NCBI GenBank assembly: GCA_016218715.1
Contig: JACRDG010000053.1
Location: 124,001-188,000 of the forward strand
Direction: 5' to 3'
DNA length: 64,000 nt
DNA from: Desulfomonile tiedjei
GTDB lineage: Bacteria > Desulfobacterota > Desulfomonilia > Desulfomonilales > Desulfomonilaceae
A program made the translations under genes and the position numbers. Positions 31,956 to 46,087 of this stretch are shown here, piece by piece (the first letter of the stretch is position 1; the number at the start of each line of letters is the position of its first letter). The notes beneath the pieces were generated by a model. It did not search any database, was not told the DNA's origin, and was given only the letters and a program-made list of their open reading frames with translations.

Positions 31956-32053
31956 AGCCACTGCAGCGTCGCGAAAGATCCCGAAACCCTCACTCCGCCT
32001 TGCCTTACTGGTGACTTGTGGTCACGAATTGATGTGAGGTCTTCAAACCGCTG

Positions 32054-32446
32054 CTAGGGCTCCCAAGAGGGCCTGCTCGACACAGGAGGCGCTGGCGGGA
32101 TCTGTCCGAGCTTCACCGCATCGAAGGGGTTCGACGCTCCAGGTGCAGCCGCCGGGACCGCTCTGGCGTCCGAGTCAGACCCTTCCCTGTATCGCTGAAT
32201 GTACGCGTCGGCAGCGTCGAAAGGATAGCTGATGAGCTTGCCCAGCGCCCAGAATACGTAGAGCTGGTCAGCTGCGGTGGGTTGCCCGTTTGCGGTCGCG
32301 GGACGGGCCTGCTGAACCGCTTGGGCATCGATTTCAGCCGCGCGCTTGGCGGGAACGAGGTTCCTGCGCTGATCCTCGGCCTGGCTCGAAAGGACGGCGC
32401 ACAGCGTCACAGTGATGGTAACAAAGAACAGAAGCCATCTAGACAC
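32054..32446 (-). CDS. small exported protein
   Basis: This encodes 130 residues. GTG 32446 is preferred over GTG 32455 because GGGGAGG then lies at normal spacing. A Sec signal (WLLFFVTITVTLCAVLSSQA) is followed by an Ala/Gln-rich stretch, a short hydrophobic segment (LYVFWALGKLISYPFDAADA) and a proline-rich end. I recognise no family. It is convergent with topA. Confidence 0.6.
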   Translation of the reverse strand: MSRWLLFFVTITVTLCAVLSSQAEDQRRNLVPAKRAAEIDAQAVQQARPATANGQPTAADQLYVFWALGKLISYPFDAADAYIQRYREGSDSDARAVPAAAPGASNPFDAVKLGQIPPAPPVSSRPSWEP

Positions 32447-32766
32447 GACAAACACCTCCCCAACTCATGTGCGCCCCCTCTATCACATCTTTCGGGAAAA
32501 TCCAGCTTTTTTTGAGGCGGCCGAAAACCATTCACTTACGCCGGGCACGTGAGAGCTTAACCCAGAGTATCGTGAAGGAGAGTTCCTTGTCCGTCATTCC
32601 GGCGGAGGCCAGAATCCAGTCTTGCGTTTCACTGAAGTCGTCATATCCCGGACCTCGGCCTTCGCCGGGGTGACGACGTGGGGCCGCCGGCTTGTGGATG
32701 CCTCGACAGCGCCTGACTCTTGCCTTGGACAACTGAATGCTTCGGGTGAAGGCGATCCGGCTTGGC
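32447..32766. other. gene-free stretch
   Basis: This stretch holds the inverted-repeat relic at 32593-32674, the upstream region of the small exported-protein gene at its left side and the 3' flank of the LysR gene. No gene is seen. Confidence 0.4.
32593..32674. repeat. inverted repeat of the CGTCATTCC type
   Basis: Arms at 32593-32610 (GTCATTCCGGCGGAGGCC) and 32657-32674 pair at about 15 of 18 positions. The sequence resembles the dispersed CGTCATTCC/GGAATCCAG repeats found in many proteobacterial genomes. It sits at the 3' side of the LysR gene. Confidence 0.55.
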
Positions 32767-33705
32767 TCAGGAGCGATCTCCTCCGGGTACGAATTGCAGT
32801 TCACTCGGTTTGAGCACGCCGATCTCGGGCGGTTTTCTGGCAATCTTGATGAAGTAGCGCATCGGAACGGAAAGGGGTTCGTCCCGCAGGGTCACGATGT
32901 CCGCGTGGAACGTGATGTTCCCCTCTGCAAGATGCACCTGCTTCAAGACTCCTGCTGCCAGCTCACGATCGACGTCGTGGGACAAGATAAAGGAGACCCC
33001 CATCCTGCGCTCGATGTAGGCCAGAATAAAACTGAGGCTTTCCGATTCCACCACGACCGAAGGAGTGACTGCATGGTACGTCAGTTTCTTCATGATGGCA
33101 TCGCGGGAGCCCGAGCCCTGTTCTCGTATGATGAGCGATTCTCCGTCCAATTCTTTCACGGACACCGCCCCGCCGAGAGCAAGCGGGTGGTCCGGCCGCG
33201 TCACGAGGATAAACTCGGCTTTGGCAAACGGAATGGCCCTGAGTCCCGAGTCGTACGCGGTCCGCGCCACCACCACGAGGTCTTCGCGTCTGCTGCGCAG
33301 CCTCGCGATGAGATCCGCAGAGTTGCCCTCGCTGAGCCGCACCTGGATCCTTGGGAATTTCTTCTGGAACTGAGCCAGGAGGTCGGGCATGAGAGAGCGC
33401 GCGTAGGCTTTGGTGCTCCCTATTCTGAGCCGCTCCTGATGGGTCTTCCGGGCCTTGTCGAGGAGACCCTCGATCTGCTCGACCCGGCAAAAGATCCTCT
33501 TGCTCAGGAGAAAGAGCGAGTCCCCCACATCGGTCAGTTTGTACTGATTCCCCGCCCGGAAGAACAGCTTGACCCCGCATTCCGCCTCGAAACTCCGCAA
33601 CTGCTGCGACACGGCCGGTTGCGAAACGTTCAGGTGATTCGCGGTCAGGCTCATGCTGCCCAGGCGACAGAAATAATGGAAGGTTTCGAGATGCTTCAGG
33701 TTCAT
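32767..33705 (-). CDS. LysR-type transcriptional regulator
   Basis: This encodes 312 residues. The winged helix-turn-helix is clear at the N-terminus (TFHYFCRLGSMSLTANHLNV then SQPAVSQQLRSFEAECGVKL). The effector-binding domain follows (LRIGSTKAYARSLMPDLLAQ). It is transcribed away from the ubiX-pps-ubiD cluster with a 554-bp gap between them. This is the standard arrangement for a LysR protein that controls its divergent neighbours in response to a pathway substrate. A phenolic or CoA-thioester ligand is an inference. Confidence 0.92.
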   Translation of the reverse strand: MNLKHLETFHYFCRLGSMSLTANHLNVSQPAVSQQLRSFEAECGVKLFFRAGNQYKLTDVGDSLFLLSKRIFCRVEQIEGLLDKARKTHQERLRIGSTKAYARSLMPDLLAQFQKKFPRIQVRLSEGNSADLIARLRSRREDLVVVARTAYDSGLRAIPFAKAEFILVTRPDHPLALGGAVSVKELDGESLIIREQGSGSRDAIMKKLTYHAVTPSVVVESESLSFILAYIERRMGVSFILSHDVDRELAAGVLKQVHLAEGNITFHADIVTLRDEPLSVPMRYFIKIARKPPEIGVLKPSELQFVPGGDRS

Positions 33706-34259
33706 AGAGTGACCCGACCGCCGAGAATGAAGTCAATTTCGGCATTGTCTGAGAAACTTTGGCGAGCAATGCCGCGCGCTGAGCGCCGGTCTCAATGAGG
33801 TTCAGCATACCACACTATAAGGCAAACTAATACAGGTATAATTTTTTGTGACTTGACTTCCTTCCTTACCTCCCGGAGAATCTTTCCAGATCAAGATACG
33901 ATGCTCCTTCTGGAGCGTTGCCCCTTGATCGTCGCATCTCCTTTCTTGATAACGTTCGTCGTTCTTTTCCGGCCGGCCCGATCGGGGGCGCCGGTCGCTG
34001 GGGCATAGGCGAGACGGTGGACACGTTCAGGTAATAACCAGCCTTTTGAGCACAGCAGCATTCGGATGGATGATCGGAGAATCAGGTCTTTGTACGTTCA
34101 TCCGCCTGAAAGTATAACCAGAGAGGCGCAGGGGTTCAAGCCGTTCGAAGTCGGGTAGTCCGAGCCCGTGGGGGTCGTCAGACTTCGACCGGGAGCGTAA
34201 GTCTTCAGGCTTCCGGTGAAGTTCGATCTCGGGCCTTCTCCACGGAGAAAGTTGTTCTC
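33706..34259. promoter_or_regulatory. divergent control region of the phenol cluster
   Basis: This 554-bp gene-free stretch lies between the leftward LysR gene and rightward ubiX. An AT-rich part at 33800-33860 near the LysR start is a likely promoter and LysR-binding area. I could not define a single T-N11-A box with confidence, and I see no other gene. Confidence 0.45.
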
Positions 34260-34823
34260 GTGAAAAGGATCATTGTCGGCATAAGCGGAGCCAGCGGTAC
34301 CATCTACGGCATTCGTCTCCTGGAAGTCCTCAAAGAGACCGAAGGGGTCGAGTCGCATCTTATCCTCAGCCGCGGGGCCAGGATCGCGATGCAGCACGAG
34401 ACCTCCCGGACTCCCGATGAGGTAGAAGCGCTCGCGGATCACGTCCATGCCCCGGAGAATCTGGCCGCTGCCGTATCCAGCGGATCGTTTCGCATTGAAG
34501 GCATGATCGTCGCTCCTTGTTCCATGAAGAGCTTGTCGATGATCGCCAACTCCCTCAATGACAACCTCCTCATCCGCGCGGCGGACGTCACGCTCAAGGA
34601 GAGGCGCAAGCTCGTGCTCATACCGAGGGAAACGCCCCTCCATCTGGGACATCTCCGCCACATGATTGCAGTCACCGAGATGGGCGGGGTCATTCTCCCG
34701 CCGGTCCCCTCGTTCTACCACCAGCCGAGAAGCATAGAGGACATCATCGACCAGACCATTGGCAAGGCATTGGACCAGTTGGGGGTCGACCACCAACTTT
34801 TTCGGCGCTGGGGCGGCGGATGA
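34260..34823 (+). CDS. ubiX: flavin prenyltransferase UbiX
   Basis: This encodes 187 residues from a GTG. The FMN-binding start IIVGISGASGTIYGIRLLEV, the middle MIVAPCSMKSLSMIANSLND and LIPRETPLHLGHLRHMIAVT are diagnostic. UbiX joins a dimethylallyl group to FMN, producing the prenylated FMN cofactor of UbiD enzymes. A UbiD gene lies 4 kb downstream in the same direction, so this copy probably serves the phenol pathway. It is the first gene of the rightward cluster. Confidence 0.95.
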   Translation: MKRIIVGISGASGTIYGIRLLEVLKETEGVESHLILSRGARIAMQHETSRTPDEVEALADHVHAPENLAAAVSSGSFRIEGMIVAPCSMKSLSMIANSLNDNLLIRAADVTLKERRKLVLIPRETPLHLGHLRHMIAVTEMGGVILPPVPSFYHQPRSIEDIIDQTIGKALDQLGVDHQLFRRWGGG

Positions 34824-35332
34824 CCCGGGAAGAGCTGGAAGAGATCGTGATTCGCTTCATGGACAGGTTCACGACCATGACGCTGGCATGTTGTGTCGCG
34901 AAGACTCCGTGGACTGCAGCGGTCTACTACGCGAGACAGGGTTACGACCTGATTTTCTTTTCCTCACCCCGGTCGCGGCATGCGATGGCATTTGCGTCGA
35001 ATCCCGCGGCTGCGGCAGCAATACACGGCGATTATAGACTCTGGCAAGAAATCAAAGGTCTTCAGATGCAAGGCCGCGTGCAACCGATCACATCGCCTCT
35101 GGCATTAGCCAAGGCCACAGCAACGTACCTGAGGAAGTACCCTTTTGTTCGCGAGTTCCTATCCGATCCGGCTTCGCTATCTCCCACTGTGGTGAAGAAG
35201 ATGGCCAAGGTCTCCTTGTACGTCTTTCGACCGGACAGCGTCTGGTACGTGGATAACGAAGCAGGATTCGGAACGAGATGGAAGCTGGACATCGAGGATG
35301 GCGCGGTCGTGGGAGACCCTGTCCTGGCGTGA
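34820..35332 (+). CDS. pyridoxamine 5'-phosphate oxidase-like flavin protein
   Basis: This encodes 170 residues. The ATG overlaps the ubiX stop (ATGA), so the two are translationally coupled. MTLACCVAKTPWTAAVYYAR followed by DLIFFSSPRSRHAMAFASNP fits the split-barrel flavin fold of PNPOx-like proteins. LQMQGRVQPIT is the next strand. Such proteins reduce or bind flavins, haem or F420. The coupling to ubiX suggests a role in prenyl-FMN supply or maturation, which is inference. Confidence 0.8.
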   Translation: MTREELEEIVIRFMDRFTTMTLACCVAKTPWTAAVYYARQGYDLIFFSSPRSRHAMAFASNPAAAAAIHGDYRLWQEIKGLQMQGRVQPITSPLALAKATATYLRKYPFVREFLSDPASLSPTVVKKMAKVSLYVFRPDSVWYVDNEAGFGTRWKLDIEDGAVVGDPVLA

Positions 35333-35566
35333 CGTCGGCCCGGACCGGAACCTGTCGTGCCTTCGCCCCGATGGACTTCTCATGAGGCAAGCAGCACTTG
35401 TTCCCCAAGGTCGGCACCGACCGGGTACGTGGAGGATTGGCCTCCACAGGGGAGCGAGCAGTGGGTCGCTGGTGAGGTTCTTGAATCCGCGGAAGCCGGG
35501 GCTTCTCGGAATCGGGGACGGTAGCCTGCTCTACTTCGGCACAACAACCAGGAGGAGGTAGGAGAG

Positions 35567-37399
35567 ATGGCCGAGTTGAAGTTCCCCAGTCCACATGAGG
35601 CCGAGAAGATTCCGGGCACTGAAGGATGGGAGCGGATGTATCCGTATCACTATCAGTTCAGCACGACCAACCCGGACCGCAAGGCGTACGAAGAAGGCAT
35701 GTTCTGGTTCTATGACGGTCTGCACTATCCCGAACCGATGTACCCCTTTGACATCATCTGGGACGAAGCGTGGTTCCTGGCGTTGTCACAGTACAACCAG
35801 CGCATCTTCATCGTCCCCCCCGCTATGGGGATCGATCATCGTATCCACAACGGTTACATCTACATAACCCCGCTGCCCGTTCCCGACCCGACAGACATCC
35901 CCAAGAGAGCAGAACTGTTCATGAAACGGGCAGGATACTATTACCAGAATTGGGATAAGCTCCACGACAACTGGGTCGAGAAGATGCAAGGGATTATCAA
36001 GGAGCTTGGCGACCTCGAGATACCCGGGCTCCCGGAAGTGGAAGAGGAGAAGGTTGTCACGGAAGGCCTCGGCATCTCAACCGGGTACCGACTCCTGAAC
36101 GCCTATGACAAGCTCATCGACCTGGGCATCCTCTGCTGGCAATACCACTTCGAGTTTCTCAATCTGGGATATGCGGCCTACGTTTTCTTCGTGGATTTTT
36201 GCCAGAAGGCCTTCCCGGACATCCCGCTTCAGAAGATCACCCAGATGGTGGCCGGCATCGATGTCATCATCTACCGCCCTGACGAAGAGCTGAAGAAACT
36301 CGCTAAACTGGCCATTGAGCTCGGAGTGGAAGACATCGCGATGAACGGCACGGCAGAGCACGTGCTCAAGTCGATGGAAGGCTCGGCCAACGGGAAGAAG
36401 TGGCTCGAAGCCTTCCAGGCCGCACGAGAGCCGTGGTTCTACGTCTCCACCGGAACGGGTTGGTACCATCACGACCGGTGCTGGAACGACGACCTCGATG
36501 TTCCCATTGACGCGCTCCGGATCTACCTCGAGAAGCTGAAGAAAGGGGACAACATCGACCGCCCGACCCAGCAGGTCATCGCAGAACGGGATCGGCTTGC
36601 TGCGGGATATCGGGAGTTGATGACCACCGATGCCGACCGCCAGACCTTCGACCAAATGCTCGGCCAGGCAAGGACCGTCTTCCCCTATGTGGAAAACCAT
36701 CTGTTCTACGTGGAACACTGGTTCCACAGCTTGTTCTGGAACAAGATCCGCGAAGTGTCCAAGACCCTGGTCGAATACAAATTCATCAAAGACATCGAAG
36801 ACGTCTGGTACCTGTCACGTTCGGAGATCAAGGAAGCGCTCTGGGACGTGGTGACCTCGTGGGCCACCGGCAGCAACGCTCGCGGACCGCTCGTGTGGCC
36901 GCAGGAAGTGGAGTGGCGCAAGGGCGTTATGGAAAAATTCCGCCAGTGGAGCCCTCCCGACGCGATGGGCACGGTCCCTGAGACGATCACCGAGCCGTTC
37001 ACGATTGTCCTCTGGGGCATCACCTCGGATTCCATGACTCAGTGGGCCAGACTCAAGAGCGTCGCGGAAGGCGATTTGACGAGAATCATCGGATTCCCCG
37101 GCTCGCCCGGAATCGTCGAGGGACCGGTTCGCGTCTGCCGTACCGTCAAGGAGATCGGAGAACTCAGGGACGGGGAAATCCTCGTGGCCCCCACCACGTC
37201 TCCGAGCTGGGCTCCAGCGTTTCAGAAGATCAAAGCAGCGATAACCGACGTCGGCGGTGTCATGTGCCACGCGGCCATCGTATGTCGTGAGTACGGTCTT
37301 CCCGCAGTTGTGGGGACCGGTTCCGCCACTTCCAGGTTGAAGACAGGTCAGAAGATCAGAGTGGATGGCGCCAAGGGAGAGATAGAAATCCTCCCCTGA
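35567..37399 (+). CDS. ppsA: phenylphosphate synthase subunit A-like (phosphohistidine subunit)
   Basis: This encodes 610 residues. The last 100 form the PEP-utilising swivelling domain: GFPGSPGIVEGPVRV, then TSPSWAPAF and DVGGVMCHAAIVCREYGLPA. The phospho-accepting histidine is His568; from memory the Thauera aromatica phenylphosphate synthase has His569 at this place. The N-terminal 480 residues are aromatic-rich and match the non-catalytic part of that 70-kDa subunit in style and length. It would pass phosphate from subunit B to phenol. GGAGGAGG with GGAGAG precedes the ATG. The name ppsA here means phenylphosphate synthase, not PEP synthase. Confidence 0.88.
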   Translation: MAELKFPSPHEAEKIPGTEGWERMYPYHYQFSTTNPDRKAYEEGMFWFYDGLHYPEPMYPFDIIWDEAWFLALSQYNQRIFIVPPAMGIDHRIHNGYIYITPLPVPDPTDIPKRAELFMKRAGYYYQNWDKLHDNWVEKMQGIIKELGDLEIPGLPEVEEEKVVTEGLGISTGYRLLNAYDKLIDLGILCWQYHFEFLNLGYAAYVFFVDFCQKAFPDIPLQKITQMVAGIDVIIYRPDEELKKLAKLAIELGVEDIAMNGTAEHVLKSMEGSANGKKWLEAFQAAREPWFYVSTGTGWYHHDRCWNDDLDVPIDALRIYLEKLKKGDNIDRPTQQVIAERDRLAAGYRELMTTDADRQTFDQMLGQARTVFPYVENHLFYVEHWFHSLFWNKIREVSKTLVEYKFIKDIEDVWYLSRSEIKEALWDVVTSWATGSNARGPLVWPQEVEWRKGVMEKFRQWSPPDAMGTVPETITEPFTIVLWGITSDSMTQWARLKSVAEGDLTRIIGFPGSPGIVEGPVRVCRTVKEIGELRDGEILVAPTTSPSWAPAFQKIKAAITDVGGVMCHAAIVCREYGLPAVVGTGSATSRLKTGQKIRVDGAKGEIEILP

Positions 37400-37424
37400 C
37401 GCGTAAGTGGACGAGGGTTTTCCG

Positions 37425-38504
37425 ATGGATGTATCACGGTACCTCATTCCTTTTGAAGCGTGCGACCTCACCATGATCAGCCGGGTCGGCGGCAAATGCG
37501 CCAGCCTGGGAGAGCTTCTGAGGGCGCAGATTCCCGTTCCTCCGGGTTTCGCGATCACGACGGACTCGTACTCGCGATTCCTGGAGGAAAACGGCCTCAC
37601 GGACAAGGTCCAGGAACGGCTCAAGGGGCTCGACGTCAGCATGTTGGACGAAATCCACACTGCATCCGATGAGATAAGGGCCTGGATCGAGTCAGGGACC
37701 ATAAGCGAGCCCCTGGAAGATATCTTCGCGGAGAACTACCGGGTGCTCTCGCGAAGATGCCGGACCCCCGCACTGCCGGTGGCCGTTCGTTCGTCCGCCA
37801 CCGCGGAGGACCTCCCGGATGCCAGCTTCGCCGGGCAGCAGGACACGTACCTCTGGATCCGGGGGGTCGACGACCTCCTGGACAGAATATGCAAGTGCTG
37901 GTCGAGCCTCTTCACCCCCCGGGCGATCTCTTACCGCATCAAGAACAAGTTCGACCACGCACAGGTGCTCATCAGCGTAGCGGTCCAGAAGATGGTCCGG
38001 TCGTTCACCGCTGGGGTCATGTTCACCATCAATCCCGCGACCGGAGATCGAGCCACCGTGGTGATCGACTCAAACTGGGGGTACGGCGAAAGCGTCGTCT
38101 CGGGCGAGGTGACGCCGGACCAGATCCACGTGAACAAGATCACCATGGAGGTGAGTAAGAAGACCATCTCCAAGAAGGTCATGTATTACACGACCGACCC
38201 GCACACCGACCAGGTGGTGAAGATAGAACTTGATGCCGAGCGGCAGGAATCCCAGAGCCTCTTGGACTCGGAGGCCATCGAACTGGCCAAGCTGGCCAAG
38301 ATAATCGAACGGCACTACGGCAAGCCCATGGATATCGAATGGGCCACCGAGAAATCGCTGCCGTACAAAGGTGACATCTACATTGTCCAGAGCCGGCCGG
38401 AGACCGTCTGGAGCCAGAAGGAGGTGAAACCCGTGGTGGAGCCCAAAGCCAGCGCTATAGAACATATCATGGCCGGGCTCATCAAGGGAAAGAAGATTAC
38501 GTAG
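37425..38504 (+). CDS. ppsB: phenylphosphate synthase subunit B-like (ATP-binding subunit)
   Basis: This encodes 359 residues, the PEP synthase/PPDK N-terminal ATP-grasp alone. VGGKCASLGELLRAQIPVPP, VAVRSSATAEDLPDASFAGQ, GVMFTINPATGD and DIYIVQSRPETVW are the standard landmarks. In phenylphosphate synthase the 40-kDa subunit B uses MgATP to phosphorylate the histidine of subunit A. It starts 25 bp after subunit A (GAGGG before ATG 37425). The split of PEP-synthase-like domains into two adjacent genes is the hallmark of this enzyme. Confidence 0.9.
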   Translation: MDVSRYLIPFEACDLTMISRVGGKCASLGELLRAQIPVPPGFAITTDSYSRFLEENGLTDKVQERLKGLDVSMLDEIHTASDEIRAWIESGTISEPLEDIFAENYRVLSRRCRTPALPVAVRSSATAEDLPDASFAGQQDTYLWIRGVDDLLDRICKCWSSLFTPRAISYRIKNKFDHAQVLISVAVQKMVRSFTAGVMFTINPATGDRATVVIDSNWGYGESVVSGEVTPDQIHVNKITMEVSKKTISKKVMYYTTDPHTDQVVKIELDAERQESQSLLDSEAIELAKLAKIIERHYGKPMDIEWATEKSLPYKGDIYIVQSRPETVWSQKEVKPVVEPKASAIEHIMAGLIKGKKIT

Positions 38505-38834
38505 GCCATGGCTACTGGACCTATGCGGGAACGATACCCTTTCTCTTTCACGAAAATCCCGTCAGTGGGTTAAATCCCACGGCTCGTTAGGGAACGGCCT
38601 TTCGCGACGGGATCGCAAAATCTCCCAAGGGGTTCACGGGGAATGGCCCGGTGTTTTGCCTTGGGCCGGCCGGACAAGTGCGCTCCGATCCAGTTGGATT
38701 GTCTCGAGTGGTCCACAGGGGAGAATAAAGAACCGGGGTAAGGAAAGGTTACGTCTCCAGGTGTCCGAATTGAAGCATAACAGGCCTGGTGCCTGAAGCC
38801 AGTACTGATTGCAACAAAGGAGAGAAAGATTCCC
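38505..38834. other. 330-bp gap between ppsB and ubiD
   Basis: This is the only large gap inside the cluster. No gene, hairpin terminator or repeat is obvious. It may contain a second promoter for ubiD and the genes after it. Confidence 0.35.
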
Positions 38835-40241
38835 ATGAAAGACATGAGAGATTTTATCAGAGAGGGCGAGGCGAAGGGATTGTGCAAACGCATTACAGCG
38901 CCGGTTGACTGGAACCTGGAGCTCTCGCATATCGCCAAGCTGAACGAGGAGGCGTGCGGACCCGCTCTCCTTTTTGAAAACGTCAAGGATTACAGCACAC
39001 CGGTTATCACCAGCGTATGCACCACCACGCAACGGCTGGCCCTGATCATGGGGCAACCACTGGAGTCCACTTTGGTGAATCTTTACGATGCGTGGGCAAG
39101 GCTGGGCGAGAATTTGCTGCCGCCGAAGTATGTCGACAAGGCTCAAGCACCGTGCAAGGAAAACATCCTGACCGGAGATCAGATCGATCTTTTCAAGTTC
39201 CCCGTACCCAAATGGTACCCGCTGGACGGCGGACGTTATATCGGCACCGCCCACTTTTTCGTCACCAAGGACCCTGAATCGGGCTGGATAAACCTGGGCA
39301 CGTACCGAGCCCAACTGCTGGGCAAGGACAAGATGGGGACCCAGTTCATCAAAGGCAAGCACGCGGATATCATGCTGAAGAAATACCAGGCGATGGGTAA
39401 GAAAATGCCGGTGGCATCGATCATCGGATGCGATCCCCTCCTGTTCATTCTCGGAGCCGCGCGCGTCTCCGCTTTTGTGTCGGAATATGATGTGGCCGGC
39501 GCGCTTAGAGGAACAGCGGTGGAAGTGGTGAAGGGTGAAACCGTCGACCTCCCCATCCCGGCACACGCGGAAATCGTTATCGAAGGCGAGGTGGATCCCA
39601 ACAAATTCATGGAAGAGGGACCGTTTGGCGAGTACACAGGCTATTACTCGGGCGTCGGAACGGATCCGCGCAATTTTGTGGATGTGAAATGCGTTACGCA
39701 CCGGAACAATCCGATTCTGTGGGGGACCACCGTCGGCCGGGCGGTAACCGATACCCACATGACCATGGCGCTTTCCTACGGCGCGACGCTTTGGCAGCAG
39801 CTTCTGGCCATGAAGATCCCGGGTCTGAAAGCCGTGTACTGTCCGCCAGAGGGTTCAGGCAGGTTCCTCGCCATCATCTCCGTGAAACAGATGTATCCGG
39901 GCCACGCGGACCAGGTGCTCACCGCGGCTATCTCCACGGAAATGGGCGCCTATGGCCTGAAGACAGTGATCGTCGTGGACGAGGACATCGATCCCTGGGA
40001 TATTCCGCGGGTGATGTACGCACTGAGTTTCAGGTTCCAGCCCAACCGTTCCCAGGTCATAAAACGTGGCCGCTCCACGCCGCTCGACCCGTCTCTGCCC
40101 ATCGAAGCGAGAGACATCACGGGCAGGCTGCTCCTCGATGCCACCATACCCTATGACTGGAAAGAAAAGCCGGTCCCCATCGAATTGGACGCGGAAATGG
40201 TGAAAAGAGTCAAGAGCAGGTGGTCCGAGCTGGGATTTTGA
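38835..40241 (+). CDS. UbiD-family (de)carboxylase, phenylphosphate carboxylase candidate
   Basis: This encodes 468 residues. The UbiD signature EEGPFGEYTGYYSGVG is intact. The N-terminal FIREGEAKGLCKRITAPVDW, the middle GTQFIKGKHADIML and VASIIGCDPLLFILGAARV, and VYCPPEGSGRFLAIISVKQM follow the family order. UbiD enzymes use prenyl-FMN and Mn2+ to add or remove CO2 from aromatic or unsaturated substrates. Next to phenylphosphate synthase subunits it most likely carboxylates phenylphosphate to 4-hydroxybenzoate. Only one UbiD is present here, whereas the Thauera enzyme has two UbiD-like subunits plus smaller ones. Confidence 0.92.
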   Translation: MKDMRDFIREGEAKGLCKRITAPVDWNLELSHIAKLNEEACGPALLFENVKDYSTPVITSVCTTTQRLALIMGQPLESTLVNLYDAWARLGENLLPPKYVDKAQAPCKENILTGDQIDLFKFPVPKWYPLDGGRYIGTAHFFVTKDPESGWINLGTYRAQLLGKDKMGTQFIKGKHADIMLKKYQAMGKKMPVASIIGCDPLLFILGAARVSAFVSEYDVAGALRGTAVEVVKGETVDLPIPAHAEIVIEGEVDPNKFMEEGPFGEYTGYYSGVGTDPRNFVDVKCVTHRNNPILWGTTVGRAVTDTHMTMALSYGATLWQQLLAMKIPGLKAVYCPPEGSGRFLAIISVKQMYPGHADQVLTAAISTEMGAYGLKTVIVVDEDIDPWDIPRVMYALSFRFQPNRSQVIKRGRSTPLDPSLPIEARDITGRLLLDATIPYDWKEKPVPIELDAEMVKRVKSRWSELGF

Positions 40242-40340
40242 GCCCTGACCCAGTGATTTCGTTCTTGTTCCCAAAGAGGGTGTGGGAACCCATGCCGGAC
40301 CCCCAGCGTCCCGCAAGTGCAGACTCCAAGGAGGCCTCCG

Positions 40341-42002
40341 TTGAAACCGATTCGTTATAAACAGGATATGGTAGATGAATTCGTGAAGAACGGGTATTGG
40401 ACCCAGGAGACCTTTTACGATTTCTGGGACCGAAACGCCCGTGAATATGGAGACAGAGAGGCCTTGGTGGATTCCAAGTACCGCTTGACCTGGGCCGAAG
40501 CCAAGCGCCTTGTGGACGCCATGGCGATATCATGGGTGGAAATGGGGATCCCGAAGCATTCCCGCATGATCGTCCAGTCCCCCAACAGCGTCTACGGTTT
40601 TTTGTCCAGGATTGCCTGTGAAAGGGCCGGCCTGATCTCTCTGACCGTTTATCCTTACCTCCGACAGAGGGAACTGGAATATATGGTTGAGCGGACACAG
40701 GCGTCGGCCGTTATCATCGTCAACATTTACAACAAGTTTAATTACCTGGAAATGTACGAGGGACTCCAGAAGCGGTTCCCGCATTTGAAGAACATATTTT
40801 TGTTCGATGATGAAGTTCCGAAGTCCGCGCCCGAGGGGACCTTCTCGCTGACCCGCATCGTAAACGAGCGTGCAAAGAAGCCCGTGGACGAGTCCGTCCT
40901 CGCGGAACGACGGCTGGATCCCATCTGGAATGTGGCCCTCCTCACCACAACATCGGGGACCACCGGGATTCCCAAGCTCGTGGAATGGCCCATCGCTCCC
41001 CGGGTCTGCACGTCCAAGGGCCGAGTCGATATCTGGAACCTGACCAAGGACGACATTACCATGGCTATCGCGCCTCATGCCGGTGGCGCGGCCGGCACGC
41101 TCACGTATTTTGCCGCGCCGCTGGCCGGGGCAAAGACCGTAATGTTGGAGGACTTCTCTCCCGACGGGGCACTGGCCCTCATCGAAAAGGAAAAGGCAAC
41201 GGCCATCGGTGTGGTACCCACGCACCTCGTGAGAATGCTCGACGCGGATGCGTCCAAGTACGATCTCAGCTCGCTTCGCTTTATCCGCTCCGCGGGCGGC
41301 TATCTTTCTCCCCAGATTGCCGAGGAAGCCGAGAAGGCTTTCGGCGCTTCGATCACCAGCGATCTGGGCACCCAGGACATGGGGTCGGTGTCCGGATGCC
41401 GGGTCGAGGATTCCAGGGACCTGCGTCGCAGGACCGTGGGTCGCATGCTTCCCGGAAACCAGGTCCGTCTCATGGACGAATCAGCAAAAAACCAAGTTCC
41501 CGACGGAGAACCCGGTGTGCTCTATTTCCGCGGCCCGCATGCCCCGGCCGGGTACTACCGCGACGAGGAGCTTACTGCCACGGTCTTCGATCCCAACGGT
41601 TGGACCACCACCGGCGATATCGTCAAATTCGACCAGGGGTGCCTGTGGATCCTGGGAAGAGCCAAGGACATGATTATCCGGGGAGGGCAGAATATTTATC
41701 CTGCGGAAATCGAGGGCCTTCTGAACGATCATCCCAAGGTGACCTCCGTCGCGGTTGTCGGCTATCCGGACCGGGAAATGGGCGAACGGGCATGCGCCTA
41801 CGTAATTCCCAGGGCAGGACAGGAATTCACTTTCGCGGAGATGGTGGATTTTCTGAAATCGAGGAAGATCGCCATGTTCAAGCTCCCCGAGCGTTTGGAG
41901 GTGGTGTCCGACTTTCCCACCGTGGGGGATTCTGGAAAGGTTAACAAAGAAACTTTGAAGATAGATATCAGGGAAAAATTGGCTGCGGAGGGCAAAGCCT
42001 GA
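40341..42002 (+). CDS. AMP-forming acyl-CoA ligase, 4-hydroxybenzoate-CoA ligase candidate
   Basis: This encodes 553 residues. TTG 40341 is chosen because AAGGAGG precedes it by six bases. The adenylation core has LLTTTSGTTGIPKLVEWP (P-loop), TTTGDIVKFD (hinge/ribose site) and GDSGKVNKETLKI (catalytic lysine near the end). The enzyme would activate a carboxylic acid with ATP and CoA. Its place directly after UbiD points to the carboxylation product, 4-hydroxybenzoate. Aryl specificity cannot be confirmed from sequence by eye. Its stop overlaps the next start. Confidence 0.9.
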   Translation: MKPIRYKQDMVDEFVKNGYWTQETFYDFWDRNAREYGDREALVDSKYRLTWAEAKRLVDAMAISWVEMGIPKHSRMIVQSPNSVYGFLSRIACERAGLISLTVYPYLRQRELEYMVERTQASAVIIVNIYNKFNYLEMYEGLQKRFPHLKNIFLFDDEVPKSAPEGTFSLTRIVNERAKKPVDESVLAERRLDPIWNVALLTTTSGTTGIPKLVEWPIAPRVCTSKGRVDIWNLTKDDITMAIAPHAGGAAGTLTYFAAPLAGAKTVMLEDFSPDGALALIEKEKATAIGVVPTHLVRMLDADASKYDLSSLRFIRSAGGYLSPQIAEEAEKAFGASITSDLGTQDMGSVSGCRVEDSRDLRRRTVGRMLPGNQVRLMDESAKNQVPDGEPGVLYFRGPHAPAGYYRDEELTATVFDPNGWTTTGDIVKFDQGCLWILGRAKDMIIRGGQNIYPAEIEGLLNDHPKVTSVAVVGYPDREMGERACAYVIPRAGQEFTFAEMVDFLKSRKIAMFKLPERLEVVSDFPTVGDSGKVNKETLKIDIREKLAAEGKA

Positions 42003-43246
42003 TGGATAGAGCCATCTTGCTCGTTTCGACCCTGGATACCAAGGGACCGGAGACCTTGTTCCTGCGCGATCGCATCCACGAGAGGGGGGGGCATCCCGTG
42101 ATCCTCGACATGAGTATGTCCGGGGATTCGTCGGAGGCCGATATCCCTCCCTCGGAAGTGGCCGCTGCCGCGGGTGCCAACATCCAGGAGATCCGAAGCT
42201 CACGCGAGCGAAGAGAGATCACCCGAAAGATGATCAACGGCGGGATCAAGCTCGCCAAGGACTTGCTCGAAGCCGGCCGTCTGGCGGGAATCGTCGGGTT
42301 GGGGGGCTCCACGGGGAGCCTCATGGCCACGGAAGTTATGAGGACGCTCCCCTTCGGGATTCCCAAACTCATGGTCTCTTCCACTGCCGCTCTCCCCGGA
42401 CTGGCTACCCGATACATCGGGACCGGTGACATCTCGATCCTCCACACGGTCATCGAGATCTCGGGGCTCAGCGCACCGCTCTGCAACCTCCTGGACAGAG
42501 CGGCCGGAGCTATCGTCGGGATGGCCGAGGTGGCACCCTTGACCGTGCAGTCGGCTCGGCGGGAAGGGAAGCCGCTGGTGGCCATGTCCATGTTCGGACC
42601 CACCGAGCGATGCGCGCACCACGTCCAGATGAGCCTGGAACAAGCGGGGTATCAGGTCATCGGCTTCTCCGCCGCGGGTGTGTGTGACCGCGCGATGGAA
42701 GACATGATAGGGAGCGGCTTCTTCGATGCCGTGGTGGACCTCGCGCCGGGCGGCGTGGGTGAGGAGGTTCTTGGGGGCATGAGAGCTGCCGGGCCGAACC
42801 GCCTCAGCGCCGCTGGGAAACTCGGCATCCCGCAGGTGATTGCCCCGGGCGGCGTGAACCTCACCAGCCCGAGAAAATCCCGGTACACACCCGACCACCA
42901 CCAGCGCAGAAAGTACGAACTCGACGAATTGAGGACGTTCTTGCGCGTCTCGGATGAGGAGATGGAGCAGGTGGCTCGGGTCTTCGCCGAGAAACTCAGC
43001 TCGGCCACGGGGCCGACTATCTTCCTCTTCCCCGCTCAAGGGTGGTCTGCGGTAGATCCTCCCACAGGACATATGTTCGATGCGGAGCAGGACCGGCTCT
43101 TCCTCGGCATCTTGCGGGGTCACGTAAATTCCGCCGTCATTATCCGGGAAGTGGATGCCAACCTGGAAGACGAGCGCTTTGCCGATGCCGTGGTCGAGGC
43201 ATGCCTGGAGCTGTTCCCTCGTGCCTCAACGAGCGCGGGCTCTTGA
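42002..43246 (+). CDS. Tm-1-like (UPF0261) ATP-binding protein
   Basis: This encodes 414 residues, starting one base before the ligase stop ends, so it is coupled to it. AILLVSTLDTKGPETLFLRD, VGLGGSTGSLMATEVMRTLP, FGIPKLMVSSTA and LFPAQGWSAVD are family landmarks of UPF0261/Tm-1. The plant member Tm-1 binds ATP and a viral replicase; bacterial function is not established. Two nucleotide-fold halves are expected. Its position inside a phenol-carboxylation operon suggests a metabolic or chaperone-like role, but no known step needs it. Confidence 0.88.
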   Translation: MDRAILLVSTLDTKGPETLFLRDRIHERGGHPVILDMSMSGDSSEADIPPSEVAAAAGANIQEIRSSRERREITRKMINGGIKLAKDLLEAGRLAGIVGLGGSTGSLMATEVMRTLPFGIPKLMVSSTAALPGLATRYIGTGDISILHTVIEISGLSAPLCNLLDRAAGAIVGMAEVAPLTVQSARREGKPLVAMSMFGPTERCAHHVQMSLEQAGYQVIGFSAAGVCDRAMEDMIGSGFFDAVVDLAPGGVGEEVLGGMRAAGPNRLSAAGKLGIPQVIAPGGVNLTSPRKSRYTPDHHQRRKYELDELRTFLRVSDEEMEQVARVFAEKLSSATGPTIFLFPAQGWSAVDPPTGHMFDAEQDRLFLGILRGHVNSAVIIREVDANLEDERFADAVVEACLELFPRASTSAGS

Positions 43247-43265
43247 CCGGAACAGGGAGGTCGTC

Positions 43266-43904
43266 ATGTTGGTAAAGAACTGGATGTTGCCCCAGCATTA
43301 CTCCATATCCAGCGACGCGCTGGCTGTGGACGCCGTCATGTTGATTCGCGAGCACGACCTCAAGATGCTCCCCGTGGTCGACGAAGGGCGTCTCAGGGGC
43401 GTGGTGCATCGCCGAGATCTGAGCGAAGCCGCATATTGCGTCAGCGAAAGCGGTGACGTCTGCGAGGTCAACTACTTCTGCAACAAACTCAAGGTGAAGG
43501 ATGTCATGGTCCGTATGCCGGTCACGGTCTCCGTCGACGACGCGGTGGAGGAGACGCTCATCAAGGGCCGGGATATGATGATGAGCACCTTTCCGGTCAT
43601 GGACGGCGAGCGGGCCGTCGGGGTGGTATCGGACCGTGAGATTTTCGTCACCCTTTTCAAGGTGCTGGAGGCAGGTACCAAACGTACCCGAATCACCTTG
43701 ACCGGAGTCACGCTCGAAAAAGGGACTCTTTCGGATATCCTGCGCGTCGTCGACGGCTATAACGCCATAGCGCGGGCGGTGTTCACCGTGTCTGACGGAA
43801 ACGGTAACGTCCGGGTGGTGTTGCGACTTCAGACGGAAGACCCGGAAGCCATCCGCAAAGGACTCGAAGATAGCGGTTACACAATCCTGGAATACGCACC
43901 CTGA
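43266..43904 (+). CDS. ppsC: CBS-domain protein, phenylphosphate synthase subunit C-like
   Basis: This encodes 212 residues. Two CBS motifs fill the first 140: MLPQHYSISSDALAVDAVML through LPVVDEGRLRGVVHRRDL, then MVRMPVTVSVDDAVEETLIK through FPVMDGERAVGVVSDREIF. The last 70 look like a small ferredoxin-like (ACT-type) domain. In Thauera the 24-kDa CBS subunit C stimulates phenylphosphate formation. Size, domains and location all fit, though three genes separate it from ppsB. GGGAGG precedes ATG 43266. Confidence 0.82.
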   Translation: MLVKNWMLPQHYSISSDALAVDAVMLIREHDLKMLPVVDEGRLRGVVHRRDLSEAAYCVSESGDVCEVNYFCNKLKVKDVMVRMPVTVSVDDAVEETLIKGRDMMMSTFPVMDGERAVGVVSDREIFVTLFKVLEAGTKRTRITLTGVTLEKGTLSDILRVVDGYNAIARAVFTVSDGNGNVRVVLRLQTEDPEAIRKGLEDSGYTILEYAP

Positions 43905-43991
43905 TGACTCCGGTCCCCACGGTACGGTTCCGAAGAATTATATTATGCGCAAGACTCCTGCCCGGAGGACTCAAAGCTCAAGGAGGTTGCC

Positions 43992-44354
43992 ATGATTGAC
44001 GAGTTCTGTTTCTTCGAGATACCCGGCGACGACCTGGACAAGCTGCAAGAATTCTACGGGACCATGTTCAACTGGTCCTTCGAGAAGGCTCCGGGGGCCT
44101 TCAGGTACCACGTGATTCATACCCCCGGCAATAGCCTCAAGGGAGGCCTGACCGCGCGTCAGGACCCGGAACATGCACTGGTGAATTACGTCAAGGTGGC
44201 GTCCGCCGAAGAGAGTCTGGCCAGGGCCGTCAAACTCGGAGCGACCGTTGTCGTTCCCCGAAACCCGGTTCCGGGCATAGGCTGGTACGCGGTGATCAAG
44301 GATCCCGAGGGGAATCGTCTGGGACTGTGGGAAGATAACGTCCAGGCGCGGTAG
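43992..44354 (+). CDS. VOC (glyoxalase/dioxygenase superfamily) protein
   Basis: This encodes 120 residues, one VOC domain of two beta-alpha-beta-beta-beta modules: FCFFEIPGDDLDKLQEFYGT plus FNWSFEK, and VIKDPEGNRLGLWEDN at the end. The metal-ligand glutamates expected at strand ends are visible. It is the last gene of the rightward cluster, with AAGGAGG before the ATG. It might act on an aromatic side product or be a metal-dependent lyase. Its substrate is unknown. Confidence 0.85.
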   Translation: MIDEFCFFEIPGDDLDKLQEFYGTMFNWSFEKAPGAFRYHVIHTPGNSLKGGLTARQDPEHALVNYVKVASAEESLARAVKLGATVVVPRNPVPGIGWYAVIKDPEGNRLGLWEDNVQAR

Positions 44355-44404
44355 ATGCACGCGGGACAGGCGCAGACGGTTTCCCACAGCTCGAACGCAG
44401 CGCC

Positions 44405-46087
44405 TCACCGCATGAAGCTATGAGAGGACCGGCTCTGCGGCGAATTGCTCGCCAGGTACGGACCGTCTCGCATGCCGACTTGAGAGACGAACAAGCGAAC
44501 ATCACGGGGTCCACGTTTCTCCGTACCCAGGCTTACATCCCTCGGTAAGCGCTCGGGGCGGGATCTCGTGTGCACGAGAATTCGCAATCGGTTGCCGGGA
44601 TAGTGGAGATTCAACAAGGATTTGATGCTGTAGTCGTTCAAGTAACCGACTTCTCGCGCCCTTGGAGTCTCATCCTCATAATGCCTGATCGCTGCCGGAA
44701 GGTTGTAAATATGCACCGTAACTTCGGCAGGCAGGCGAGGCACGATTGCCCCCAACTTCTTGAAAAAGAGCGAGGATATCTTCCCGCTGTCCGCCACTTC
44801 AGGATAGTGTCGCAGCAACGGAGAGCTTGCCATGAGTGACACGGCGACCGCGGCCGCAAATCCGATGCAACAATAGTTCAGACGCATCATGCCGAGCGAG
44901 GCTGCCGGCGGTGCTTCGCTACACGACTCACACCTGTTCCTCGCGGACGCCTCTCTCGCGTACCGCAGACCGTTAACCAGCACCCAACTCAACAATGCAG
45001 AAAATGGAATCACGGCCACATACATATTGCGATGGCTGAAGGTCGCGCTGAGCACGAATACCGCAAGCGGTAAACACAGCCAAACCGCAAGAAAACAAGG
45101 CACTCTTACGTTCGTTCGACCAGACGGATCACGCCGACCAATGCCTACGAGGACGCACCCCGCGGTCAAAATGACGAGAAGGAATATAAATCGGGACTGG
45201 AGCATCACGGCAGAGATGTTCAACAGGTCCTGGGGGTACAGGAGATCGTGAAAGTAGAGAACCACAATGTCCATGGACTTTGCGATGGCATTCGTGATGC
45301 TGACGGGGTTCTCCGGGTACCCGCCCATGCTACCGAGGAGGTGTATTCTCCAGGCCAGGTAACCGAGCGTCGCGAGGAAAAAGATCGCGCTGCCACGCGC
45401 GGCCGCCAGAAATCTCTCCCGAACTCGGGCTTTCTCCGAGAACACCCCGTGATAAGCAAGCACGAGGCAGGGAAAGAAAATTGCGGTCTCCTTGGCGCCG
45501 AGGGCCAACACGTAGCTGCAGACCGCGGCCACAACAGCCCTTCTGCTTGGTGAGGTCCCAGGCCCGGTTCTGACAAGGAGACAGAGCGCGGCGAGCAAAA
45601 ACAAAGCTGCCAGAGAATCGTGACGCAGCGCGGGCGCCGGAACGCTTTCCACCAGGATCGGATGAATCGCGAACAGCGCAGCGGCAGTGCCGGCGACCCA
45701 GAGGTCGCCTCGGGTGAGGAACCAGACCAACCAGCCCGCCAGCGCGACTACGAGTAGGTGCAGGGCCAGGTCAGTCAGATGGTACCCGAAAGGATTCAAC
45801 CCCCAGATGGCGTGATCGAGCGCGTAGGACAGGACCGCGATCGGTCTGTAAAACTTCCCCCGTTCGACGAAACTCGTGCCTGCCATCAGAGGTGTGGTGA
45901 AGACTCTCTGCAGGTCGCGGTAGGAAGCAACGGACGCGGTTTCGATGAGGGTCAGGGTGTCGGTGCCGGTAAAGAAATACCCGAGGGTAGGCTTGTAGGC
46001 GAAAAACCCGATCAGGCACACGAACCCGATCGCGCCCCACATCTTCAGACAGCCTGCCTTTTTACGACATGTCCGGTCCTCAGGCAT
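44405..46087 (-). CDS. polytopic membrane glycosyltransferase-like protein (GT39/TMTC type)
   Basis: This encodes 560 residues with about ten membrane helices. FYRPIAVLSYALDHAIWGLN followed by PFGYHLTDLALHLL closely resembles the luminal-loop motif of TMTC/GT39-like mannosyltransferases that use polyprenyl-phosphate sugars. The acidic residue in FFTGTDTLTLIE matches the catalytic aspartate position. The tetratricopeptide repeats common in this group are missing; a 150-residue soluble C-terminus follows instead. It is convergent with the phenol cluster. Start ATG 46087 has a weak ribosome site; ATG 46042 is an alternative. Confidence 0.75.
   Translation of the reverse strand: MPEDRTCRKKAGCLKMWGAIGFVCLIGFFAYKPTLGYFFTGTDTLTLIETASVASYRDLQRVFTTPLMAGTSFVERGKFYRPIAVLSYALDHAIWGLNPFGYHLTDLALHLLVVALAGWLVWFLTRGDLWVAGTAAALFAIHPILVESVPAPALRHDSLAALFLLAALCLLVRTGPGTSPSRRAVVAAVCSYVLALGAKETAIFFPCLVLAYHGVFSEKARVRERFLAAARGSAIFFLATLGYLAWRIHLLGSMGGYPENPVSITNAIAKSMDIVVLYFHDLLYPQDLLNISAVMLQSRFIFLLVILTAGCVLVGIGRRDPSGRTNVRVPCFLAVWLCLPLAVFVLSATFSHRNMYVAVIPFSALLSWVLVNGLRYAREASARNRCESCSEAPPAASLGMMRLNYCCIGFAAAVAVSLMASSPLLRHYPEVADSGKISSLFFKKLGAIVPRLPAEVTVHIYNLPAAIRHYEDETPRAREVGYLNDYSIKSLLNLHYPGNRLRILVHTRSRPERLPRDVSLGTEKRGPRDVRLFVSQVGMRDGPYLASNSPQSRSSHSFMR

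Follow-up and report, generated by a model that had tools for sequence, protein, structure and literature searches.

A probable phenol-activation operon of the one-UbiD kind in Desulfomonile tiedjei, with a UPF0261 protein as candidate partner of UbiD

How could phenol be carboxylated by an operon with one UbiD instead of a four-subunit carboxylase of the Thauera type? This question is raised by a gene cluster at positions 34260–44354 of a 64,000-nucleotide stretch of Desulfomonile tiedjei DNA (hereafter the window). Phenol enters anaerobic metabolism through carboxylation, and so does benzene, via phenol, in Geobacter metallireducens, as described in the available part of PMC13101534. We read the cluster as an operon for anaerobic phenol activation with a single UbiD, in which a UPF0261 (Tm-1-like) protein is the putative partner of UbiD, and put the probability of this reading at roughly 0.6. 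The one-UbiD layout is not new in itself, having already been reported for G. metallireducens and Desulfatiglans anilini. The UPF0261 protein, which the initial annotation listed but did not discuss, is, judged from locus distributions, the part that co-varies with this design. No role for such a protein in phenol clusters was found in the open-licence literature searched, as far as its available text goes.

The cluster had been described as nine genes in one direction opposite a LysR gene, which was borne out by coordinates, strands and Pfam domains. The nine genes share the + strand, and the LysR-type regulator (32767–33705, − strand; LysR_substrate and HTH_1), which lies outside the interval 34260–44354, is divergent from them; a homolog with 60–65% identity was found at the same position in six same-family loci. 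The intergenic spacings were operon-like with two exceptions: ppsA is preceded by a gap of 234 bp, and 330 bp separate ppsB from ubiD. Taken from the ends of tblastn matches, the ppsB–ubiD distance was 41–43 bp in three of the six relatives; the other three had 129, 220 and 778 bp. Gene order was conserved in all six same-family loci examined (L049, L050 and L135–L138), except that tblastn in these loci did not detect the PNPOx gene in L136 and detected the VOC gene in just two of them, L135 and L137, at the same place and with 55–61% identity. The products of these two genes are a PNPOx-like protein (34820–35332; PNPOx_N 30 bits, cut-off 28.1), 34% identical to that of the PNPOx gene beside the pps genes of Azoarcus sp. 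KH32C, and a VOC/glyoxalase-like protein (43992–44354; Glyoxalase_6 in Pfam). Of 17 further genomes of the family that were searched, 16 have a PpsA ortholog with 76–82% identity. This, the gene order kept in relatives and the invariance of His568 of PpsA (see below) indicate that the arrangement is no chance. No Rfam match was obtained in the window, and the repeats in 32000–45000 belonged to short families only. As to the description of the operon as complete-looking, every listed gene is present, but no 4-hydroxybenzoyl-CoA reductase is encoded inside it.

Counterparts of all three subunits of a phenylphosphate synthase were found. The split PEP-synthase-like halves noted in the initial annotation, with His568 in the swivelling subunit, were confirmed as separate PEP-utilizers and PPDK_N proteins. 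The swivelling alpha subunit PpsA (35567–37399) carries its PEP-utilizers domain at residues 534–604, and the catalytic His568 was invariant in 14 of 14 aligned PpsA; the protein scored 985.4 bits (cut-off 723) with NF006152, a model that carries the name 'hypothetical protein'. The ATP-binding beta subunit PpsB (37407–38504) gave 399.4 bits with PPDK_N. The third subunit is assigned by likeness, being a PpsC (gamma)-like CBS-pair protein (43263–43904, start possibly ATG at 43266) with two CBS stretches in Pfam, as had been annotated, and 36% identity to the KH32C CBS protein. With 63% and 56% identity to their KH32C counterparts, PpsA and PpsB resemble phenol-type synthases. On a PpsA tree of 49 rows (45 accompanied by UbiD or ppc genes and four picked UbiD-less ones; L065 was left out, its PpsA being shorter than 500 aa), the window PpsA grouped in one clade with the PpcA-bearing clusters, separate from the four rows that lack UbiD. 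A second Pps-like pair was observed in the same genome on contig C80, with UPF0261 present and no UbiD, an occurrence that counts against the partner role proposed below for UPF0261.

Synthases of this kind are known for more than phenol: the available portions of PMC9618137 and PMC7500099 describe Pps-like enzymes for 4-cresol (CreHI), hydroxyphenylethanones (HpeHI) and aniline (Pas). Furthermore, in one relative (L135) the UbiD and the ligase differ as a unit, as if the product chemistry were changeable. The operon might serve a different phenol (catechol, cresols, hydroquinone) or an aromatic amine (aniline) in place of phenol itself. We consider this unlikely, in view of the identity and tree position of PpsA just given and of a cluster without an Hpe-type biotin carboxylase; in D. 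anilini, moreover, Pas-alpha is merely 26.7% identical to the organism's own Pps-alpha (PMC7500099, available part). A pathway from phenol to 4-hydroxybenzoyl-CoA is, on the gene content, probable with good confidence.

The UbiD (38835–40241; three UbiD domains in Pfam) was assigned to the PpcB type, with 508.1 bits against the PpcB equivalog TIGR02724 (cut-off 468.95) and an identity of 50% to PpcB and 33% to PpcA of KH32C. The initial annotation had proposed a UbiD tree as a check; on this tree (54 rows, with L061 and L124 left out because their UbiD was shorter than 380 aa or broken) the protein resembled the UbiDs of phenol-type pps-ppc clusters. The motif columns of the 54 rows place Arg158, Glu261 and Glu266 in the window UbiD, which we take to be the Arg-Glu-Glu catalytic triad known from Fdc1. 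A UbiX flavin prenyltransferase, the predicted source of prFMN for UbiD, is encoded at 34260–34823 (Flavoprotein in Pfam; NF004685 273.4 bits, cut-off 188; TIGR00421 248.6, cut-off 108.9), so that both features used to recognize a prFMN-dependent UbiD are present, and the UbiX and UbiD signatures annotated earlier agree with the curated models.

The earlier proposal of one UbiD rather than a four-subunit carboxylase was examined across the genome. The sole other UbiD is MqnL by score (621.1 bits vs a cut-off of 495.9) and lies, by eye, beside MqnA-like and UbiA-type prenyltransferase-like genes; it was rejected as an alpha subunit. No protein in the genome exceeded the PpcA cut-off, the best match being the window UbiD itself (221.9 vs 564.6 bits), and none exceeded that of PpcD, with one match at 159.6 vs 281.95 bits. 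Since the other UbiD is MqnL and no PpcA or PpcD exceeds its cut-off, the one-UbiD proposal holds at sequence level. In the 64-kb window, tblastn yielded nothing for PpcG and, UbiD itself aside, nothing for PpcA or PpcD; KH32C PpcG (85 aa) had no match to E 10 there, and its matches in the 14 other genome stretches tried were all at chance level. The PpcD model also matched in 8 of 14 control genomes, with 0 over the cut-off. Its match in our genome makes up the C-terminal portion of a 471-aa frame whose start resembles KdsA by eye and whose neighbors look pyrG-like and LPS-transport-like. Because of the score, the KdsA-like frame and the LPS-gene surroundings, this KdsC-like HAD protein was rejected as a dedicated PpcD; as it is 46% identical to KH32C PpcD, it may have a second, borrowed PpcD role.

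Such a borrowed subunit touches on another explanation, in which UbiD has a partner resembling alpha or delta whose gene lies elsewhere and escapes the curated models, and UPF0261 merely hitch-hikes. D. anilini has been read in this way: the available text of PMC6114531 ascribes alpha and delta to unlinked genes, and its delta is 46% identical to that of Thauera, as our HAD protein is to KH32C PpcD. The same text states that no gamma was found and that carboxylase activity could not be measured in vitro, and its authors propose a different catalytic mechanism. The reverse primer for the D. anilini 'ppc alpha', moreover, corresponds to WSELGF, the residues with which the window UbiD and further UbiDs of this type end, unlike the six PpcA rows. 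Since the D. tiedjei genome offers just one further UbiD, clearly MqnL by score, and a single HAD match, we regard an unlinked partner as quite improbable.

What accompanies the single UbiD is the UPF0261 protein (42002–43246; UPF0261 N and C domains). Among 80 PpsA loci, the best 80 of 565 confirmed relatives, counted on the contigs available, many of them short, and with L067 and L070 scored as without UbiD, it was found in 18 of 28 loci with a PpcB-type UbiD and no PpcA, in 0 of 4 with PpcA, and in 0 of 48 without a nearby PpcB-type UbiD. UPF0261 as a mere companion of PpsAB was rejected on the last count, and the strict rule that a single UbiD always comes with UPF0261 was rejected on the 10 of 28 loci without it. 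Two of these ten, L063 and L066, are whole-looking betaproteobacterial single-UbiD clusters with UPF0261 nowhere in their genomes, so a single UbiD can manage without it. In 49 hand-chosen genomes or records (our own, six others of the family, eight of the same phylum, the genomes of 33 PpsA loci, and KH32C; the contigs of L049 and L050 match contigs of the family members G015 and G014 in length), UPF0261 lay within 10 kb of UbiD in 30 of 40 without PpcA vs 0 of 9 with PpcA, distances among UbiD, PpcA, HAD and UPF0261 being read by eye from printed coordinates. Fisher's test gave p = 4.5 × 10–5, ignoring kinship and applied to a non-random sample chosen around PpsA. A PpcD-like HAD adjoined PpcA in 9/9, five of them over the cut-off.

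On the PpsA tree, where L067 was labelled PpcA-type from its genome (at the locus itself ppcD alone is seen), six changes between the PpcA and single-UbiD types were required, some of them inside Sulfuritalea. For the independent-pair test 44 rows were used (L061 and the four UbiD-less rows left out; the two clusters L141 and L142 come from the same genome). In the six independent pairs UPF0261 moved opposite to PpcA in four to six and in the same direction in none, with a median p of 0.031 (range 0.031–0.125). Two Sulfuritalea loci, L059 and L062, are 90% identical in PpsA and 85% in PpsB, and the carboxylase module is swapped directly after ppsB. Such swaps behind near-identical synthases, with UPF0261 co-varying, make it a concrete candidate for a missing carboxylase component. 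Tentatively, UPF0261 could be the partner of the single UbiD in place of the alpha and delta (and perhaps gamma) subunits, although not universally. Somewhat more doubtfully, a second, simpler phenylphosphate carboxylase might exist, made of a PpcB-type UbiD and a dedicated UPF0261 replacing PpcA, PpcD and PpcG, the two kinds being exchanged as cassettes behind the same synthase.

The predicted UPF0261 model (pLDDT 91.6) contained both domains and matched the family fold. The fold was shared over the whole length, with 29% identity, with Saro_1862 of Novosphingobium aromaticivorans (9mpy) and tomato Tm-1 (3wrw), a plant virus-resistance factor (VIA Z 33.4 and 41.6, respectively). Lower-ranking structure matches outside UPF0261, among them UDP-GlcNAc 2-epimerases, had Z ≤13 and were not used. 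On a quick tree, the UPF0261s labelled as cassette by their distance to a same-strand UbiD were set apart from the rest by a branch with an SH-aLRT of 99%, the exceptions being second copies in L145 and L147, labelled cassette and lying outside, and L139, labelled other and lying on the cassette side. When 29 cassette-side rows were compared with 14 other rows, residue 251 was Gly in 27 and Ala in two of the former vs Glu in 14/14 of the latter, and residue 229 was Asp in 29/29 vs Gly in 13/14; the Glu251 criterion was chosen in this analysis and is no published family feature. The cassette subfamily also differed at residue 132 and others. The window protein has Gly251, whereas Saro_1862 and Tm-1, as read off the alignment, have the equivalents of Glu251 and Gly229.

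Saro_1862, the nearest bacterial solved relative, was solved with bound acetovanillone, a phenol. In N. aromaticivorans, as far as the available literature describes it, acetovanillone catabolism starts with the single-component kinase MarK, while elsewhere the two-component HpeHI or AcvAB is used. We infer that MarK is Saro_1862; PDB searches with PpsA and PpsB, which display molecule names and no organisms, gave no molecule named MarK. UPF0261 could accordingly be pictured as an independent second phenol kinase of the MarK kind (one ATP to ADP) beside PpsAB and unrelated to UbiD. We find this unlikely, because UPF0261 tracks the single UbiD and not PpsAB in the 80-locus count, is missing exactly where PpcA and PpcD occur with near-identical PpsA, and in the cassette form has residues 251 and 229 unlike those of Saro_1862 and Tm-1. 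The bound phenol also bears on a role as a maturation or chaperone factor for UbiD. LpdD, which binds reduced prFMN and aids the activation of E. coli UbiD (PMC10865409, available part), is a precedent, and the UPF0261 gene is only two genes from ubiD; but LpdD is small and of a different fold, and a ligand-holding relative such as 9mpy speaks against a factor of this type, which we judge improbable.

The preferred reading, with UPF0261 as partner of UbiD, leads to the following scheme. PpsB would take ATP and load His568 of PpsA, which would hand the phosphate to phenol to give phenylphosphate, aided by the CBS protein as an accessory subunit. Carboxylation at the para position, with departure of the phosphate, would then be the work of the PpcB-type UbiD and its UbiX-derived prFMN, and the aryl-CoA ligase would convert the resulting 4-hydroxybenzoate to 4-hydroxybenzoyl-CoA, from which a reductase encoded elsewhere (contig C48) would yield benzoyl-CoA. 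UPF0261 would take on phosphoryl-handling and/or assembly tasks of Thauera PpcA (an alpha UbiD), PpcD (a HAD phosphatase) and PpcG (gamma), presumably binding phenol or phenylphosphate and acting on the bound compound jointly with UbiD. UPF0261 may even run in reverse, passing the phosphate of phenylphosphate to ADP while phenolate is carboxylated; the grounds for this are a relative with a bound phenol and the probable presence of a phenol kinase in the family. We hold this step to be very unlikely; if true, it would save energy for poor anaerobes. UPF0261 as a carboxylase component may also have a bearing on how sulfate reducers balance their energy, a point called unclear in the available part of the D. 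anilini paper (PMC6114531).

The ligase (40317–42002; AMP-binding in Pfam) is 2,3-dihydroxybenzoate-AMP-ligase-like, with 1md9 as its best solved relative (252 bits); among the 25 NCBIfam models shown, none was over its cut-off. The initial annotation had suggested looking for 4-hydroxybenzoyl-CoA reductase genes elsewhere in the genome. An HcrA-like candidate was found on contig C48, with 1rm6 as best solved match (600 bits, next 314) and 69–70% identity to proteins within the phenol clusters L068 and L141; but the HCR-like sets were below both curated cut-offs (HcrA-like 906.8 vs 994.55; best HcrB 207.1 vs 404.55), and the FAD subunit adjoining the candidate scored higher as XdhB (226) than as HcrB (103). 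BamA was over its cut-off (541.4 vs 464.45), which 0 of 14 controls exceeded. No benzoyl-CoA reductase was identified in the genome by searches with BCR models, PF06050 and AOR: three HGD-D proteins and one activase were below all BCR cut-offs, and all four AORs had better scores with other AORs than with BamB (4z3w), one by a narrow margin (184 vs 160 bits).

Compared with known systems, the window shares PpsA, PpsB, the CBS protein, a PpcB-type UbiD, UbiX and a nearby PNPOx gene with the pps-ppc cluster of Azoarcus sp. KH32C (plasmid pAZKH, NC_020548), which is of the Thauera aromatica type; the function of that cluster, the sole useful one of 23 plasmid records, is annotated by model with no assay. 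The KH32C cluster has ppcD, ppcA, ppcG and a third UbiD, whereas by tblastn none of the four was found in the window, which has UPF0261. The CoA ligases are of different types (24% local match), and the regulator is LysR in the window vs sigma-54-dependent in KH32C. The phenol-induced phe cluster of D. anilini (H567DRAFT_02049–02059) is described in the available text of PMC6114531 with ppc-beta only, a gene named 2,3-dihydroxybenzoate-AMP-ligase that is induced on phenol, a ubiX-like gene, ppsA and ppsB, all in common with the window; it also contains the HCR alpha gene, unlike the window operon. A one-UbiD layout like that of the window is likewise indicated for the putative pps/ppc operon Gmet_2100–2102 of G. 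metallireducens (PMC1924859), for which a ppc-beta homologue only is mentioned in the available part of PMC6114531, and the metagenome-assembled Geobacter sp. UBA698 (L056) showed the order ppsA-ppsB-ubiD-UPF0261-CBS-ubiX. The Hpe/Acv hydroxyphenylethanone pathway differs in its biotin-dependent carboxylase HpeCBA, no domain of which was found by Pfam among the ten window cluster proteins. Finally, the cassette subfamily keeps the fold of Saro_1862 and tomato Tm-1, but lies beside UbiD and differs at residues 132, 229 and 251. UPF0261 is still called uncharacterised by Pfam, and the partner role, if true, would be a function to look for in this family.

The initial annotation had described a nine-gene phenol carboxylation operon running opposite a LysR gene (32767-33705), and this layout was confirmed by gene coordinates and Pfam domains. 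On the forward strand follow ubiX (34260-34823), a PNPOx-like gene (34820-35332), ppsA (35567-37399) and ppsB (37407-38504) for the swivelling and ATP-binding subunits of phenylphosphate synthase, ubiD (38835-40241), a CoA ligase gene (40317-42002), a UPF0261 (Tm-1-like) gene (42002-43246), a CBS-pair gene for a PpsC-like, putative third synthase subunit (43263-43904) and a VOC gene (43992-44354). His568 of PpsA, also pointed out there, was invariant in all 14 aligned PpsA proteins. The alignment showed that the window UbiD has Arg158, Glu261 and Glu266, the catalytic triad of Fdc1, and UbiX is encoded in the same operon. Between lysR and topA, identified by eye or by Pfam, a short reading frame (32532-32843) carries the wording HPGEGRGPG...ILASAGMT, typical of a dispersed bacterial repeat. 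Downstream of the operon, a 757-aa protein (46263-48536, minus strand) appeared by eye to consist of ankyrin-like repeats.

The host genome (5.55 Mb, 124 contigs, 99.99% complete) carries the window within contig C9. A PpsA ortholog (76–82% identity) was found in 16 of 17 other genomes of the family; of the 148 genomes searched, 45 including the host had a PpsA hit at 1e-20, which in some cases involved just the swivelling domain within a larger protein. Operon order was retained in all six family loci, with the PNPOx and VOC genes missing from some. UbiD and the ligase were the most conserved pair in L049, L050 and L136-L138 (90–93%, versus 79–82% for PpsA). At the sixth locus, L135 of genome G003, both were divergent (13395-16579) and the remaining operon was orthologous, with PpsA still at 76%; its UbiD was nearest to PpcB of Azoarcus sp. 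KH32C (53%), and the value for its ligase was 62%. A second UPF0261 paralog was observed near the operon in five of the six loci (L049 at 608, L050 at 6242, L136 at 17995, L137 at 5767, L138 at 14563), and its closest counterpart in the window genome lies on contig C65.

The proposal that one UbiD replaces the four-subunit Thauera-type carboxylase held at the sequence level for this genome, whose only other UbiD was the menaquinone-pathway MqnL (621.1 bits, cut-off 495.9), adjoined by genes resembling MqnA and a UbiA-type enzyme by eye. No PpcA over the model cut-off was found in the genome, and the window gave no PpcG match. The sole PpcD model match in the genome was under the cut-off and lay in a frame starting like KdsA, although it was 46% identical to KH32C PpcD. 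This 471-aa frame (contig C4, L167 7873-9288), with a KdsA-like start by eye and a KdsC/PpcD-like HAD end, is probably a KdsA-KdsC fusion; the corresponding open frame was likewise 471–509 aa in the other family genomes compared. The 'ppc delta' of D. anilini is also annotated as KDO-8-P phosphatase in the gene descriptions of PMC6114531. The one-UbiD arrangement is by itself already known and not a discovery, since the ppc-beta-only layout is reported for G. metallireducens in the account given in PMC6114531, and PpsAB, PpcB and the UbiX-like PpcY are named as the shared core in that of PMC5946492. In the primer data of PMC6114531, the D. anilini gene termed 'ppc alpha' (03563) has a reverse primer that reads WSELGF. 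The window UbiD ends in these residues, which are similar in many proteins of its type and unlike six PpcA rows. Gene 03563 may code for a UbiD of the PpcB type and not for an alpha subunit.

What is new here is that UPF0261 co-varies with the single UbiD, and that the cassette is exchanged. Among the loci of the best 80 of 565 confirmed PpsA relatives, some on short contigs, UPF0261 was present in 18 of 28 with a PpcB-type UbiD and no PpcA; it was absent from all 4 with PpcA and from all 48 whose available contig DNA carried no PpcB-type UbiD. Ten single-UbiD loci lack UPF0261 (L061, L063, L065, L066, L073, L075, L080, L081, L088 and L107), which speaks against a strict rule; the contigs of L061 and L065 stop shortly past UbiD. 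Among 49 chosen genomes or records, PpcA exceeded its cut-off in nine, all with an adjoining PpcD-like HAD (over cut-off in five). UPF0261 lay within 10 kb of UbiD or PpcA in none of these nine, some of which carry UPF0261 genes at other sites, and within 10 kb of UbiD in 30 of the 40 without PpcA (Fisher 4.5e-5, kinship ignored). By eye, L067 of Aromatoleum buckelii has ppcD directly after ppsA, hcr-like genes upstream and acyl-CoA dehydrogenase-like genes downstream; one PpcA lies ~24 kb off on this contig, and contig C5 of that genome carries a PpcD-PpcA pair.

In the PpsA tree (49 rows, including four UbiD-less), six changes were needed for the seven PpcA-type rows (bootstrap 6–6). In independent pairs, UPF0261 changed opposite to PpcA in 4–6 of 6 and in the same direction in none (median p 0.031, range to 0.125). 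Of the Sulfuritalea-titled rows, L059 and L071 were of the PpcA type and L062 of the UPF0261 type, with PpsA 89–90%, PpsB 85–86% and UbiX 90% identical (UbiX from L071, as L059 ends before it). Their DNA was collinear up to the end of ppsB, beyond which the carboxylase module was CBS-ppcB-ppcD-ppcA-ppcG in L059/L071 versus ubiD-UPF0261-CBS in L062. The UbiD tree placed the PpcB partners of PpcA in one clade of six and the window UbiD in a clade of 15 UPF0261-type UbiDs, both within the same larger group. In a quick tree of UPF0261 proteins, a branch with 99% SH-aLRT set those of the cassettes apart on one side.

The AlphaFold model of the window UPF0261 (pLDDT 91.6) matched tomato Tm-1 (3wrw, Z 41.6) and 9mpy (Z 33.4, rmsd 7.7 over 391 residues), the latter being Saro_1862, a UPF0261 domain protein of Novosphingobium aromaticivorans with acetovanillone bound. 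We infer that Saro_1862 is MarK, the single-component kinase starting acetovanillone catabolism; of the two-component kinases that others use instead, HpeHI or AcvAB, HpeHI is called a homolog of phenylphosphate synthase in the discussion of these systems in PMC9618137. From the bound acetovanillone and this assignment, the family deals with phenols, which it probably phosphorylates. Cassette UPF0261 proteins had Gly at residue 251 in 27 of 29 (otherwise Ala), Asp at 229 in 29/29 and Pro at 132 in 28/29, versus Glu (14/14), Gly (13/14) and Asp (14/14) in the other rows; Saro_1862 and Tm-1 aligned with Glu at 251 and Gly at 229. Because of these cassette-specific residues and the tie to UbiD, we favour, over a spare kinase, a role with the carboxylase, in which UPF0261 would act in phosphoryl removal or assembly. 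For the part that one-UbiD phenylphosphate carboxylases are missing, UPF0261 is a candidate that can be tested. Contig C80 has a second Pps-like pair (L131 9809-18066; 26% and 38% identical to the window PpsA and PpsB). Behind it come small genes, an aldehyde:ferredoxin oxidoreductase (AOR) gene and a UPF0261 gene, with no UbiD; by eye, a LysR-like and two oxidoreductase-like genes precede it. This locus possibly belongs to another phosphorylation-started aromatic pathway.

Elsewhere in the genome, the best 4-hydroxybenzoyl-CoA reductase candidate was on contig C48. Its large subunit matched 1rm6 best among solved structures (600 bits, next 314), was 69–70% identical to proteins coded within the L068 and L141 phenol clusters, and scored 906.8, under the curated cut-off of 994.55; against the candidate, the adjoining FAD subunit scored higher as XdhB than as HcrB. 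BamA was present (541.4, cut-off 464.45). Benzoyl-CoA reductase was not identified among the AORs and HGD-D proteins of the genome: all four AORs scored higher against other AORs than against BamB, in one case by a narrow margin, and three HGD-D proteins were below every BCR cut-off.

The phenol-carboxylation interpretation was right in outline, and most of it was known already. PpsA, PpsB, UbiX and the CBS protein were 63%, 56%, 57% and 36% identical to those of KH32C, and UbiD was 50% identical to its PpcB and 33% to its PpcA, KH32C being annotated by model rather than assay. The window UbiD was above the NCBI PpcB equivalog cut-off (508.1 bits, 468.95) and far below that of PpcA (221.5, 564.6). 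All seven PpcA-type rows and the window PpsA grouped in a single starred clade of 32 rows, outside which the four UbiD-less rows fell. The experimentally studied systems of Thauera, G. metallireducens and D. anilini were compared through published descriptions. In the description of the phenol-induced D. anilini cluster in PMC6114531, ppc-beta is the sole ppc gene, alongside a ubiX-like gene, ppsA, ppsB and a '2,3-dihydroxybenzoate-AMP ligase' of unknown function. From the KH32C identities, the PpcB score, the PpsA clade and the likeness to this cluster, our best guess is that the operon would act on phenol or a close phenol. The best solved relative of the window ligase was likewise a 2,3-dihydroxybenzoate-AMP ligase, comparable to the ligase gene of the D. 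anilini cluster.
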